Positions 28,779-35,058 of a stretch of 36,527 nt of DNA are shown in pieces. The notes beneath the pieces are model-generated. The model worked only from the letters and a program-made list of their open reading frames with translations. It did not search any database and had not been told where the DNA came from. The stretch spans positions 1 to 36,527 of the forward strand of contig JAAESG010000634.1 in the NCBI GenBank assembly GCA_024229615.1, in the 5' to 3' direction. Each line of letters opens with the position of its first letter. Within the stretch, counting starts at the first letter, position 1. This stretch comes from Gammaproteobacteria bacterium (lineage in GTDB: Bacteria; Pseudomonadota; Gammaproteobacteria; GCA-001735895). Made by a program: the position numbers and the translations under genes.

Positions 28779-29741
28779 CTAAAACTGCTGTATCAAACGT
28801 GCGCCGAAACTGATATCGGGTGCGCTGCCGACCAGGATATCTTCAGAGAAAAACAGGTCGAGCCGATGATTCTCGATCAGGTTAAGAAAGCCCAGTCCGA
28901 GTTGAATCTGCAGCGAATTACCGAAAGCCTTGAGTTCGCTGTCTTCGATTGTCTGACTATGCAGGTCAAACTGGACAGTGCCGACGATGCTGTTGCTGAA
29001 TCGGTAATCGACGCCCAACTGGGCCAGCCAGATCTGATTTGCGACCAGTCCTTGCAGATTGCCTTCATCTCCGGGCAGGCTCAGACCGACCAGTCCGTAA
29101 ACCGACATTGTGGTGTCGATCTGCTTTTCGTGGACAATCCACAGAGCGAGATCGATGGCCTCGTTACCGCTGAAATCGGATTCGGAGCCGCTGGGTAACT
29201 CGATTCCAACGAAGTATCCGGGTTCGCCGGGCTTCTGGTTTCCGACTGCAAAAGCGATATCACCTATCCCGCTACTAGCGCTGGATTGCGAATATTCAAC
29301 AACACCGTCACGCGAGTATTCGATATTTACTTTGTTCTCGGGAAAGTCGCTCCGTTTGCCGCCAGGCAGTCCAAAAAAATCGTGCCAATCTTCAATCAAT
29401 CCATCAAGCTCTCCGCCGCTGTTGGCGATAAAAGGGATGCTCACCCGCAGTAACCAGCTATCGTTACGGTAACTGAAGCCAAGTTCATAGCGATAGTTCT
29501 CTACGTCGATGATCAGGTCTTCATCACTTTTGCTTTGATCCTGAAGGGTATTGGTGATCAGAACACTGTGGTCAACCAGCCAACCGTTGGAATCACCAAA
29601 AGGAGCATGGCTTGGCAGGTAAAACTGCAGTAGCATCGGATTCAGATCTCGCGTTGCCAGGCCCGTGGCCGCGAGCACCCATTCGCTGCGACTAAAAAGA
29701 AAAATTACGCTGGCAAAGGCAAGCGCTTTAGTCGGGTTCAT
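28779..29741 (-). CDS. DUF3187 family putative outer-membrane protein
   Basis: Protein of 320 residues with an N-terminal signal peptide (cleavage probably after WVLA, residue 24). The remainder has alternating beta-strand character with short turns and ends in Phe, as outer-membrane barrels do. The conserved start of the mature part, [17 protein letters not shown], and the central segments RVSIPF and [11 protein letters not shown] fit DUF3187, a family without known function. ATG at 29741 overlaps the 3' end of prfC by 14 bases, so it is likely translated from the same message. No obvious terminator follows. Confidence 0.82.
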
Positions 29742-31323
29742 AGTCGCCGTGTTCGCGCGTGGCGAGAAACTCGATATCTGGCCAGCGTTCTTCGGTCATC
29801 GTCAGATTTACCCGCGATGGGGCCACGTAGGCAAGGTCGCCGGCGTGATCGAGCGCAAGATTGCCGCGCATCTTGTGCTTGAATTCCTCGAGCTTCTTGT
29901 TGTCGCCAGAGGATACCCAGCGAGCGGTATTCACATTAACCGCCTCGAACTGGCATTCCACCCCGTATTCGTCCTTGAGCCGATGTGCAACCACGTCGAA
30001 TTGCAGCACGCCGACCGCTCCGAGGATCAGGTCGTTGTTGGCGAGCGGTCTGAAAAGCTGGGTCGCGCCTTCCTCGCACAACTGCGTCAGTCCTTTCAAC
30101 AGGGCTTTCATTTTTAGCGGATCCTTGAGTTGTGCCCGGCGGAATAATTCTGGTGCGAAATTCGGGATACCCGTAAAAACAAGCGGCTCGCCCTGGGTGA
30201 AACTGTCGCCGATACGGATCGTGCCATGGTTGTGAATACCAATAATATCACCGGTGTAAGCTTCTTCAATGTGGCCTCGATCAGCCGCAAAAAAGGTCAG
30301 TGCATCAGGGATTTTCATATCCTTGCCGATGCGCACATGGCGGACCTTCATGCCCCGGGTGTACTTCCCGGAACAGATGCGCATGAAGGCGATGCGATCT
30401 CGGTGCTGCTTGTCCATGTTAGCCTGGATTTTAAAAACAAAGCCGGTGAGCTTGTCTTCATCCGCGGATACCCTGCGGCTACGCGTAGCGCGGGGCATCG
30501 GTGGAGGGGCATACTGGTTAAATGCATCGAGTAACTCAGCCATACCGAAATTATTGATGGCCGAACCGAAGAAAACCGGGGTGAGCTCTCCGGTGAGGTA
30601 GCTGTCGAGATCAAATTCACTGGAGGCGCCTCGCACCAGCTCTATTTCCTCGCGAAAATCACCGGCCATCGCACCCAGAATCTGGTCGAGTTTGGGATTG
30701 TCGAGCCCTTCGATCACTTCGCCCGAGCTTATCTTGTCGGCATCGCTTGCGGAAAACAGGTGCACCGAATCGTTGAGCAGATGGAACACGCCTTTCAGGC
30801 TTTTACCCATACCGATAGGCCAGGTAATCGGTGCGCATCGTATCTTCAGCACATCCTCGACTTCGTCGAGCAGATCGATAGGATCACGACCCTCTCGATC
30901 GAGTTTGTTGATGAAGGTGATGATCGGGGTATCACGCAGACGGCAGACATCCATTAGTTTGATTGTGCGTTCTTCGACTCCTTTGGCGCAGTCGATAACC
31001 ATCAGCGCCGAGTCTACCGCGGTCAGTGTCCTATAGGTGTCTTCCGAAAAATCCTCATGCCCCGGGGTATCCAGCAGATTGATAATGCTATCGCGGTAAG
31101 GAAATTGCATAACCGACGATGTGACCGAGATACCACGCTGTTTTTCGAGCTCCATCCAGTCGGAGGTAGCGTGCCGGGCCGCTTTGCGGCTCTTTACCGT
31201 ACCGGCCATCTGAATTGCCTTGCCATACAGTAGCAATTTTTCGGTAACCGTAGTCTTGCCCGCATCCGGATGCGAAATAATCGCAAAGGTACGGCGTCGA
31301 CGCATTTCGTCATTGTCTGACAT
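29728..31323 (-). CDS. prfC: Peptide chain release factor 3
   Basis: GTPase that removes RF1/RF2 from the ribosome after termination. Length is 531 residues (E. coli: 529). The G motifs are [14 protein letters not shown] (G1), the [12 protein letters not shown] switch I region, [14 protein letters not shown] (G3) and [10 protein letters not shown] (G4); the later domains include [12 protein letters not shown]. The ATG at 31323 has GGAT upstream and the normal beginning; a TTG at 31335 is in frame but unneeded. The order glycosylase-rimI-prfC matches holD-rimI-(yjjG)-prfC of E. coli, without yjjG. Confidence 0.97.
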
Positions 31324-31362
31324 TTTAAAATCCAAAAATGAACCGGGGTCTGTTAACGGGCC

Positions 31363-31842
31363 CTAGTTGCCGTGTGATTCGATTTGTACAGGGATATGCC
31401 TTGCAAAGAGCAATGCATCCTCTCGACCCTCGGGCGCCGGGTAGTAATCCTTGCGACATCCGATTTCATTAAAACCGGCAGCATTATAGCAACTTATCGC
31501 GGCGCTATTGCTGGGGCGCACTTCGAGCAGCATGGTTTGTGCATCTTTCTGGCGCGCTTCTTCAACCAGGAACTCGATAAACTGATGACCGAAACCCTTG
31601 CGCTGGTACTGCTTGGCGATCGAAAGATTGAGCATATGACTTTCACCTGCGGTAACGCTGATCACGGCATGCCCGACGATGCTCAGCTGCTGTTGAGCCA
31701 GCCAGCATTGATATCCGACCCGAATACAGTCGCTGAAAATCCTCTCGGTCCACGGAAATTCGTATACTTCGTGCTCGACCATCATGACTTGCTCGACGTC
31801 TTCGAGTTGCATACGCCTGAAACCCAATACTGAATCGTTCAT
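31363..31842 (-). CDS. rimI: Ribosomal protein S18 alanine N-acetyltransferase
   Basis: GNAT-fold enzyme of 159 residues that acetylates the N-terminal alanine of S18. The acetyl-CoA pyrophosphate loop is QRKGFGHQ (Q/RxxGxG), with HMLNLSIAKQYQ before it, LEVRPSNSAAISCYNAAGF after it and RKDYYP at the C-terminal end, all as in RimI. The ATG overlaps the stop of the upstream glycosylase (ATGA), so the two are translationally coupled. prfC starts 39 bases downstream. Confidence 0.94.
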   Translation of the reverse strand: MNDSVLGFRRMQLEDVEQVMMVEHEVYEFPWTERIFSDCIRVGYQCWLAQQQLSIVGHAVISVTAGESHMLNLSIAKQYQRKGFGHQFIEFLVEEARQKDAQTMLLEVRPSNSAAISCYNAAGFNEIGCRKDYYPAPEGREDALLFARHIPVQIESHGN

Positions 31843-32666
31843 TGCAGCATTTGGTGCAACAGTTTCAGATCCTGCCAGGCGATGGCCTTGGCTGAAGGGT
31901 TGCGCAACAGATAGGCGGGATGATAGGTAACCTTGAGCGGGATATCGGTACCGGGCAGCTTGTGCATTTCTTTTATCAACTTGCCAACCGGTAGATTGCT
32001 AGCCAGCAGATTATGCGCGGAAACCCGGCCGACCGACAGAATCACCCGGGGGGAGAGCTGTTCAATTTGGGCCTCGAGAAAGCCGCGACATTGTCGTGTC
32101 TCATCCTGTTTCGGGTCGCGATTATTAGGTGGTCGACATTTGACGATGTTGGTGATGAAGACTTGTTCACGGGATATTCCGATTGCTGCCAGCATACGAT
32201 CCAGCAGTTGACCCGAGCGACCGACAAATGGTTCTCCACGAATATCTTCATCGTGCCCGGGGCCCTCGCCAACAATCAACAGGTCTGCCCGAGTATTGCC
32301 TATGCCAGGAACCTTCTGGGTACAGTTGCTTGCCAGCGCACAGGCCTCGCATCCCTGTATTGCCGAGTTGATCGAGTCCCAGGAGTCAAGCCTGGGTACA
32401 GATGGTGGTATCGTAGAAGAATCCTGAATAGAATCTGCGGCAACAGTGGCAGAAGGTGCCAGATCAGGCTTCATCAGCTCGGCTTCGGTATTTTTTGGCA
32501 GGCTCTCCGGTTGATTCTCTGTTGTATGAAACTCGACACTGTCCCCTATACTCGTACCGCCGGTATCGAGTTCCGTTTTGGGCTCTATGTCGTTGTTACG
32601 ATCGCGCTCGGCCCAAAACTGAATTCCGATTCCTTTCAGACAGCGTTGTTGCCGGTTGGTCAACAT
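31839..32666 (-). CDS. Family 4 uracil-DNA glycosylase with HolD (psi)-like N-terminal peptide
   Basis: Protein of 275 residues. Residues 100-275 are a family 4 (Fe-S) uracil-DNA glycosylase: GCEACALASNC with Cys106/Cys109, catalytic-loop GEGPG (133-137), GEPFVGRSGQLLD, NIVKCRPP with a further cluster Cys, a fourth Cys in TRQCRGF, and HPAYLLRNP. It excises uracil from DNA. Residues 24-95 are a low-complexity acidic linker. Residues 5-21 (RQQRCLKGIGIQFWAER) resemble the start of E. coli psi (HolD), sharing GI-x-x-W-x-x-R, and the gene occupies the holD position before rimI-prfC. ATG at 32666, six bases after leuA. The glycosylase call is firm; the psi relationship is inference. Confidence 0.9.
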   Translation of the reverse strand: MLTNRQQRCLKGIGIQFWAERDRNNDIEPKTELDTGGTSIGDSVEFHTTENQPESLPKNTEAELMKPDLAPSATVAADSIQDSSTIPPSVPRLDSWDSINSAIQGCEACALASNCTQKVPGIGNTRADLLIVGEGPGHDEDIRGEPFVGRSGQLLDRMLAAIGISREQVFITNIVKCRPPNNRDPKQDETRQCRGFLEAQIEQLSPRVILSVGRVSAHNLLASNLPVGKLIKEMHKLPGTDIPLKVTYHPAYLLRNPSAKAIAWQDLKLLHQMLQ

Positions 32667-32672
32667 AGAGGT

Positions 32673-34217
32673 TCACACATCTCCCAGTTGAGGATGGGTG
32701 CGACCGGCGCTGTTGATCACCTTGTTCAACGCATTGATATAGGATTTCGCCGAGGCGATGACAATGTCCGTGTCGGCACCTTGTCCGTTGATGACCTGTC
32801 CATCTTTTTCGACCCTGACGGTGACTTCACCTTGGGAGTCGGTTCCGGTGGTAATCGCATTAACCGAGTAAAGCTGCAGTTTGACGCCGGTTTGAGTGAG
32901 TTTCTCGATCGCCTTGAAACAGGCATCAACCGGGCCATCGCCACTGGCCACGGCCTGTTGCTCCGCACCATCGATGTTAAGCGTCATGGTAGCGCTCGGG
33001 ATTTCACCGGTTTCGCAACACACTTTGAGACTAACCAGTTTGATGGTTTCGTTTTCGGTCTCGAAAGTCGCTTCGTTTACCAGGGCTAACAAATCCTCGT
33101 CGAATATGTCGTGCTTCTTGTCCGCCAGGGTTTTGAAGGCGGCAAACACTTCGTTCAACTCTTCCTCGGAAGCGAACTGGATATTCAGTTCAGCCATGCG
33201 GGACTTGAAGGCATTGCGGCCTGAATGTTTGCCCAGTACTAGCTTGTTGGTGGTCCAGCCCACATCCTGGGCGCGCATGATTTCATAGGTTTCACGCGAT
33301 TTCAGGACACCATCCTGATGGATGCCCGATTCATGTGCGAAAGCATTAGCGCCAACAATTGCCTTGTTTGGCTGTACCGTGAAACCGGTAATGCCCGATA
33401 CCAGTTTTGAGCAATTCATGATTTGCGTCGTATCGAGATCGGAATCGCATCGGAAAATATCCTGCCGGGTTCGGACTGCCATTACGATCTCTTCAAGCGA
33501 TGCGTTACCGGCCCGTTCACCGAGGCCGTTAATCGTACATTCCACCTGGCGCGCACCGTGTAATACTGCGGCCAGTGAATTACCCACAGCCAGGCCCAGA
33601 TCATTGTGGCAATGCACCGAAAATACAGCCTTGTCCGAGTTCGGCACGCGTTCCATCAAGTCACTGATCAAGGCTCCGAACTGATGCGGGACGTTGTAAC
33701 CAACCGTATCGGGAATATTGATCGTGGTTGCGCCTTCGGCGATAACCGCCTCGATGACACGACACAGAAAATCCGCTTCGGATCGGCCAGCGTCTTCAGG
33801 AGAAAACTCGATATTGTCGGTGTACTGGCGCGCCATACGAACTGCAGCCACGGCAGCTTCGACCACCTGATCAGGCGACATGCGCAGTTTTTGTTGCATA
33901 TGAATCGGCGAAGTCGCCAGAAAAGTATGTATGCGGCCGGAATTGGCGGATTTGATCGCTTCGCCTGCGCGTTCGATATCAACCTGCTTGGCGCGTGCGA
34001 GCCCGCAGACCGTGCTGTCCTTGATGATCTTCGCAACCGATTTAACCGATTCGAAATCACCGTCACTGGCGATTGGAAATCCGGCTTCGATAATGTCGAC
34101 TTTCATCAGTTCCAGAGCGCGTGCGATACGAATCTTTTCATCGCGGGTCATGGATGCGCCGGGACTTTGCTCGCCGTCGCGCAAGGTCGTATCAAAAATG
34201 ATTAATCTGTCTTTGAT
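32673..34217 (-). CDS. leuA: 2-isopropylmalate synthase
   Basis: Condenses acetyl-CoA with 2-oxoisovalerate, first step of leucine synthesis. The catalytic barrel carries [34 protein letters not shown] (metal His pair) and [13 protein letters not shown], then the accessory region and the C-terminal regulatory LeuA domain with GDGPVDA, so leucine feedback is expected. Conserved starts read M-x-D-R-L-I-I-F; here the codon at that place is ATC (34217-34215), with an ideal AAGGAG six bases upstream. The nearest usual start in frame is a GTG at 34283 inside pssA. I give the conserved position: 514 residues, normal length. Lies 40 bases after pssA. Confidence 0.94.
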
Positions 34218-34257
34218 CAGAGACTCCTTACATTGTTGCCGGGTTAATGTATCGGGA

Positions 34258-35058
34258 TCAAGCCTCAGGTCCGCTGTCGTCACTCGTTTCAGACATGCGC
34301 ATTCGCTTGCGATTCCAGCGAAACAGGGAAAGTATCGGTCCCGACAACATGTACAGGAAAAAGAACGAGAACAACACGGTAGCGGTCTCGATCGAAAGAA
34401 ATACAAACACCAGCATTACCACGAGCAGGGACACGAAAGGAACCTTCTCGCGTAAATCAAAATCCTTGAAACTGTAGTACGAAAACCGGGAAACCATCAG
34501 AATGCCAGCCGCGGAAGTCAACAGCAGAGCGGCGTAGCTGACATCTTCGCCTATGATATCGTAACTCTCACAAACCCAAATCGATCCCATGACGACCGCG
34601 GCTGCCGCCGGACTGGCGAGTCCCTGGAAATAGCGTTTGTCGGCGACGCCAATCTGGGTGTTAAAACGTGCCAGTCGTAGTGCGGCACAGGTTGCATAAA
34701 TGAAGGCTGCCAACCAGCCCAGTTTACCCATCATAACCGAGACGTCGCGCAGGTAAATCAGAGACCACATGTAGACAATCAATGCCGGGGCGACGCCGAA
34801 GGAAACCATGTCGGAGAGACTGTCATATTCAGCGCCGAAGGCCGATTGAGTATTGGTCATGCGAGCCACGCGACCATCGAGACCATCGAGCAATCCGGCC
34901 AGAAAAATCGAGATTGCGGCAATTTCAAAGCGCCCGCTCATGGCCGCTATAATGGCGTAAAACCCCGCAAACAGAGCTGCCGTAGTGAACGCGTTGGGCA
35001 AAAGGTAAATGCCCTTCCGCATATTTTTTCGCGCTTCTTTGGGATTGCTATCGTCCAT
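34258..35058 (-). CDS. pssA: CDP-diacylglycerol-serine O-phosphatidyltransferase (PssA, membrane type)
   Basis: Integral membrane enzyme of 266 residues that makes phosphatidylserine from CDP-diacylglycerol and serine, leading to phosphatidylethanolamine. The CDP-alcohol phosphotransferase motif DGxxARx8Gx3Dx3D is complete (Asp61, Gly62, Ala65, Arg66, Gly75, Asp79, Asp83). About eight hydrophobic segments follow. This is the type II, Bacillus-like form, not the E. coli PLD-type PssA. ilvC-pssA-leuA linkage is common in gammaproteobacteria. ATG at 35058; ribosome site weak and a GC-rich hairpin lies just upstream. Confidence 0.95.

Follow-up and report, generated by a model that had tools for sequence, protein, structure and literature searches.

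In E. coli, the N-terminus of psi (HolD) binds domain III of three DnaX subunits; psi carries chi (HolC), and chi holds SSB (PMC3290774). Residues W57 and F64 of chi are required for psi binding, and chi may be retained for YoaA rather than for psi (PMC11981726), which would weigh against reading chi as a sign of psi. Chi is found in alpha-, beta-, and gamma-proteobacteria and psi in gammaproteobacteria only, and reviews have asked whether psi has gone undetected or whether chi contacts tau directly (PMC3290774, PMC3197488). Pseudomonas aeruginosa has a "cryptic" psi, PA4679, of 278 amino acids with a flexible N-terminal part. It was found only by its co-purification with the replicase, and it binds single-stranded DNA (PMC3197488, PMC8879598).

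We propose, with a probability of about 0.78, that a 275-residue protein encoded in the window (the whole stretch of 36,527 nucleotides that was analysed) acts as psi in the DNA polymerase III clamp loader of its bacterium while also being a family-4 uracil-DNA glycosylase (UDG4), and that HolD is a protein of this kind minus catalysis. Like HolD (PF03603; 1EM8 and 3SXU from E. coli; 3GLI for the collar peptide), it has an N-terminal peptide, a rimI neighbor, chi in its genome, a core homologous by profile comparison, and a C-terminal helix of the form K/R...W..L. Unlike HolD, which has 115-180 amino acids without the catalytic motifs or the Fe-S cysteines, it contains a full UDG4 domain. It is similar to PA4679 in length and in having a flexible N-terminal stretch before the core, but there is no report of glycosylase activity for PA4679, and these two were compared by description only. 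It shares its fold, its catalytic motifs, and four cysteines with family-4 UDGs (TIGR00758; 1UI0 and 1UI1 from Thermus thermophilus), but it adds an N-terminal peptide and a linker to the T. thermophilus form. In vaccinia virus, a UDG (D4; PMC1936997) is also a structural component of the DNA replication machinery; D4 is from a poxvirus, its partner is A20, and it does not belong to family 4, so this is an analogy only. Our text search of the literature found no paper that joins psi to UDG, and a remark on fold similarity in the paper on the chi-psi crystal structure (Gulbis 2004) is possible.

The glycosylase and its gene neighborhood

The proposed "UDG-psi" gene runs from 31839 to 32666 on the minus strand and begins with ATG. 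Six bases upstream of it ends a leuA-like ORF on the same strand (32673..34406), which, from general knowledge of its sequence, we take to encode something like 2-isopropylmalate synthase; its true start is probably within the ORF. Downstream, and also on the minus strand, are rimI (a GNAT acetyltransferase; 31363..31842), which overlaps the UDG gene by 4 bases, and prfC (RF3; 29728..31335), which was identified by family search. The original prediction had noted the gene order UDG-rimI-prfC, and both the ORF list and the family searches bear it out. In most gammaproteobacterial loci, UDG4 lies directly 5' of rimI, and classic HolD adjoins rimI in 27 of 28 loci.

The UDG4 domain (residues 91-275; 31842..32396, minus strand) was recognized from TIGR00758, profile comparison, and a fold search. 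The protein scores 199.6 bits against TIGR00758 (UDG_fam4) across residues 106-274 (the cut-off is 125.3 bits) and 122.4 bits against PF03167. Catalytic motifs A (GE[AG]PG, here GEGPG at residues 133-137; 32256..32270, minus strand) and B (HPxYLL, here HPAYLL at residues 249-254; 31905..31922, minus strand) are both intact. The columns of these motifs are invariant or nearly so in our alignment, with G133, E134, and P136 invariant, and all four Fe-S cysteines (C106, C109, C177, and C193) are intact and likewise fall in conserved columns. The C-terminal helix, K..AWQDLK (residues 259-274; 31845..31892, minus strand), is the part of the core that psi keeps best; its counterpart in E. coli psi is TARAALWQQICTYE.

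In the AlphaFold2 model, the UDG domain has pLDDT above 90, and it matches the UDG4 of T. thermophilus (1ui1) with a Z score of 30.7 and a deviation of 1.0 Å over 179 residues. Psi was not among the 50 matches listed for a fold search with this model, which weighs neither for nor against a shared fold. An AlphaFold2 model of E. coli psi, made from three near-identical rows, had a mean pLDDT of 47, too poor for a fold search. We file the window protein as a family-4 UDG; that it would work like psi is our claim, and PF03603 gave no match to this protein at E ≤ 1.

The N-terminal peptide and linker

Residues 2-21 (LTNRQQRCLKGIGIQFWAER; 32604..32663, minus strand) form a putative psi-type peptide that would dock on the DnaX collar. 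Its Gly-Ile-x-x-Trp-x-x-Arg element corresponds to G14, I15, W18, and R21. Among 29 orthologs from the genus and the family, conservation of the peptide is on a par with that of the enzyme, unlike that of the linker: pairwise identities average 0.67 for the peptide, 0.73 for the UDG domain, and 0.18 for the linker (residues 22-90; 32397..32603, minus strand), which also has 27% gaps. L2, Q6, C9, L10, and G14 are invariant in these orthologs, and W18 and R21 are present in 27 of the 29. In the AlphaFold2 model, residues 1-20 have pLDDT around 80 with a helix at 4-12, and the linker is disordered (around 48).

The peptide is also widespread. In a survey of roughly 150 UDG4 loci drawn from the genus and the family and from further families of the class (some come from a genome already counted), the strict pattern L..[hydrophobic]G[hydrophobic]..[aromatic] was absent from just 15, most of which come close to it (for example, YLDAMDIQTW or YLKKMEIPVW). 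In most of the surveyed loci, rimI is downstream on the same strand. UDG4 proteins with the peptide include those from relatives of Thiothrix, Methylococcus, Methylomonas, and Thioalkalivibrio. Betaproteobacterial UDG4 proteins (from Nitrosospira, Ralstonia, and Aromatoleum) have a variant peptide, LREMGLxPxWRLR, and rimI is mostly upstream of them instead.

When we compared the peptide profiles of UDG4 and Enterobacterales HolD, they matched at 97.6% with a score of 44.6, while column shuffles reached at most 70% and 18.2. For the betaproteobacterial UDG4 peptide and HolD, the match was 95.2% (shuffles up to 16.3%). The Pfam model for psi (PF03603), which was not built with such proteins in view, matches 11 of 24 UDG4 proteins, at best with E = 1.9e-5, and in two orthologs (L067 and L070) a single chain exceeds the curated cut-offs for both UDG and psi. 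By these comparisons, the N-terminal stretch of the window protein qualifies as a probable psi-type collar peptide.

The original prediction described about 100 extra residues before the glycosylase domain, a psi-like peptide at residues 5-21, and an acidic linker. There is an extension, of about 90 residues; the peptide stands, with its extent refined to residues 2-21; and there is a linker, which is not uniformly acidic. The prediction also called for a profile search against HolD and for a look at the peptide in orthologs; we found both profile similarity to the HolD peptide and strong conservation.

In three orthologs from the same genus (L002:1649-1750, L011:1684-1757, and L025:2036-2139), the linker contains an in-frame palindromic element of 70-100 bases (GGGGACAGACCACGTTTTTC ... 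GAAAAACGTGGTCTGTCCCC), which is translated as GDRPRFS...EKRGLSPVS. The window has no such element. Another ortholog, of 399 amino acids, carries two to three copies of a 201-base repeat in its linker (L017:1024-1541). Given the in-frame palindromic elements, the linker seems to tolerate mobile repeats.

Psi-core homology and decayed glycosylases

To compare UDG4 with psi outside of the peptide, we used Pfam to collect a set of psi proteins from 370 gammaproteobacterial genomes and aligned the profiles with hhalign. UDG4 matched the gammaproteobacterial psi set at 99.0%, and the match is in the core and not in the peptide. With the peptide cut from both sides, the match was 98.3% (100 column shuffles never exceeded 0.6%). 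By profile similarity, the psi core is thus homologous to the UDG core.

For the HolD of Enterobacterales, the direct comparison of its core to UDG4 gave just 16.5% (shuffles up to 0.8%), so the link between them rests on intermediates. UDG4 and the decayed full-length proteins (described below) match at 100% in the core, the decayed proteins and short psi at 98.6-99.1%, and short psi and Enterobacterales HolD at 93.5-96.3%. The decayed proteins also match Enterobacterales HolD in the core at 72.4% (shuffles up to 1.6%), and short gammaproteobacterial psi matches UDG4 at 98.6%. The short-psi profile recovers E. coli psi from the PDB with E = 4.6e-10. Conversely, three short psi proteins (L058, L061, and L062) match the Pfam UDG family along the same stretch (E = 0.0016-0.005). 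One of these, L061, has HPSHLLHHPSDKRHAWEALKR at the position where UDG4 has HPAYLLRNPSAKAIAWQDLKL; E. coli psi keeps only NPTARAALWQQI.

The genes 5' of rimI form a series, from intact UDG4 through full-length proteins with a ruined active site and proteins of about 155 amino acids that match both families to classic HolD. Thirteen full-length proteins at this locus (L174-L182, L185, L186, L188, and L189) have lost motif A or motif B and have kept the peptide and the C-terminal helix; some of these, such as L181, retain the other motif. A phylogenetic tree groups 12 of the 13 decayed copies beside L068, L072, and L070 and places L186 separately, beside the intact L165. Since its branches are long, a cautious count is one large loss and at least one further loss. 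The parts that survive decay appear to be those that psi needs, not those that a glycosylase needs. HolD is best read as a descendant of UDG4 minus catalysis, whose ancestor probably already had the peptide and already lay beside rimI.

A less likely explanation is that the peptide merely docks the UDG on the clamp loader for repair. In that case, chi would not bind the UDG domain, and the actual psi would either be lacking or have escaped detection. In favor of this, the peptide and the intact enzyme are both conserved, and a small psi could elude PF03603, with which HolD was detected in just 23 of the 370 genomes. However, this reading leaves unexplained why the psi core should be homologous to the UDG domain and why UDG4 and HolD share a locus, and a mere tether would have no need of the peptide and the C-terminal helix once catalysis is lost, yet the decayed copies retain both. 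We consider this explanation unlikely. The original prediction had offered a diverged psi or a tethered glycosylase, and our results support the two together, but in the opposite direction: given the core homology, the locus, and the decay series, it is HolD that seems to be the diverged form.

Chi, psi, and uracil glycosylases across genomes

Among the 370 gammaproteobacterial genomes, chi was found in 322, UDG4 in 282, and matches to PF03603 in 23, of which five are themselves UDG4 proteins (L067, L068, L070, L072, and L074). (Overlaps were counted by hand from lists, and all of these counts ignore shared ancestry.) UDG4 is present in 267 of the 322 genomes with chi; in 26 of the remaining 55, a wider profile found psi or HolD, and in 29 of the 322 neither UDG4 nor psi was detected. 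Put the other way, chi is present in 267 of the 282 genomes with UDG4 (it was undetected in the other 15), as compared to 55 of the 88 without UDG4. In viral contigs, we searched for further HolD proteins and found three copies, all of the E. coli type.

The genome of the window encodes a chi (E = 1.2e-37) in which the psi-binding residues W57 and F64 of E. coli are conserved, as W52 and F59. The original prediction also proposed to look for a separate holD in this genome, and none was found with PF03603 at E ≤ 10, which is an insensitive profile.

If UDG4 is the ancestral psi, this would explain why psi seems to be missing from most bacteria with chi. Residues 2-21 would insert into the DnaX collar in the manner of the E. 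coli psi peptide, and the UDG domain, tethered by about 70 flexible linker residues, would take the place of the psi core in E. coli-type wiring and bind chi, which binds SSB. The glycosylase would thus be kept at the exposed single-stranded template, where deaminated cytosines should be most frequent. Excision there could leave abasic sites ahead of the polymerase, and the complex may hold the activity in check.

Alternatively, the peptide might bind a partner other than DnaX, so that its likeness to psi reflects ancestry only and the HolD lineage acquired the psi function afterwards. Binding of the peptide to DnaX is a prediction from sequence, and UDG4 proteins beyond the gamma- and betaproteobacteria also have conserved but different N-terminal peptides. 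On the other hand, the same L, G-I, W, and R are kept in both the UDG4 and the HolD sets, and chi co-occurs with UDG4, so we consider this more doubtful still. We can reject the idea that an ordinary UDG4 took the peptide from a neighboring ancestral holD in this lineage, which the shared gene neighborhood could have favored: the architecture is found in nearly all sampled gammaproteobacterial families and in betaproteobacteria, and the psi core is UDG-like as well as the peptide. A chance resemblance in an ordinary UDG4 would be a concern if we had a few matching residues in one protein, but it is refuted by the conservation of the peptide, the two orthologs above the Pfam cut-off, and a profile score beyond the shuffles.

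Returning to UDG4 as a psi that excises uracil, the distribution of family-1 Ung fits a working glycosylase. Where UDG4 is strong (intact-type), 17 of 260 genomes have Ung; where it is weak or decayed, 17 of 22 do; and of the genomes without UDG4, 75 of 88 do (strong versus none, P = 2e-45, Fisher exact test, with counts that ignore shared ancestry). Ung and intact UDG4 are close to mutually exclusive across the Gammaproteobacteria. HolD of the Enterobacterales and their relatives may be what remained after catalysis was lost, with the loss tolerated where Ung does the repair: in a genome with Ung, UDG4 would be redundant and could decay into HolD. Ung was undetected in some decayed lineages (G122, G136, and G105).

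No family-1 Ung was found in the genome of the window, which gives indirect support to the predicted excision of uracil by the window protein. A second protein of the UDG superfamily is encoded in this genome (L048; G000:C523:13030-13473); it has 216 amino acids, contains GLAPGLHGANATGRPFTGD, and resembles family 5 (UDGb). The genome therefore has a candidate uracil glycosylase besides UDG4.

More broadly, we lean towards the view that in most gammaproteobacteria, and probably in betaproteobacteria, psi is an active UDG; that E. coli psi is a degenerate glycosylase; and that uracil surveillance of the SSB-coated template is built into the replisome and was lost in lineages with Ung. If so, UDG4 in the place of psi would answer the question of the missing psi for gammaproteobacteria and probably for betaproteobacteria. 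Psi would gain an evolutionary origin, one would be suggested for the cryptic psi of Pseudomonas, and many genes that are annotated only as "uracil-DNA glycosylase" might encode replisome subunits. It would also be a direct link between repair and replication that is open to simple pull-downs.

UDG4 proteins from another class of the same phylum (L305-L334) begin with a conserved peptide (LLxWYLEAGVDEAIxExPVDR or LLxYWRxCGID) and continue with a long linker, and nearly every genome sampled from that class encodes chi. These proteins are candidates for the missing psi of their class. The match of the alphaproteobacterial motif LLxWYLEAGVDEAIxExPVDR to the gammaproteobacterial peptide profile was 1.5%, within the range of the shuffles, so we do not extend our claim to alphaproteobacteria. 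In UDG4 proteins from Acidobacteria, Planctomycetes, and Myxococcota (L265, L269, L250, and L244), we also noticed an amphipathic N-terminal stretch that ends in Leu-x-x-x-Gly-[Ile/Val].
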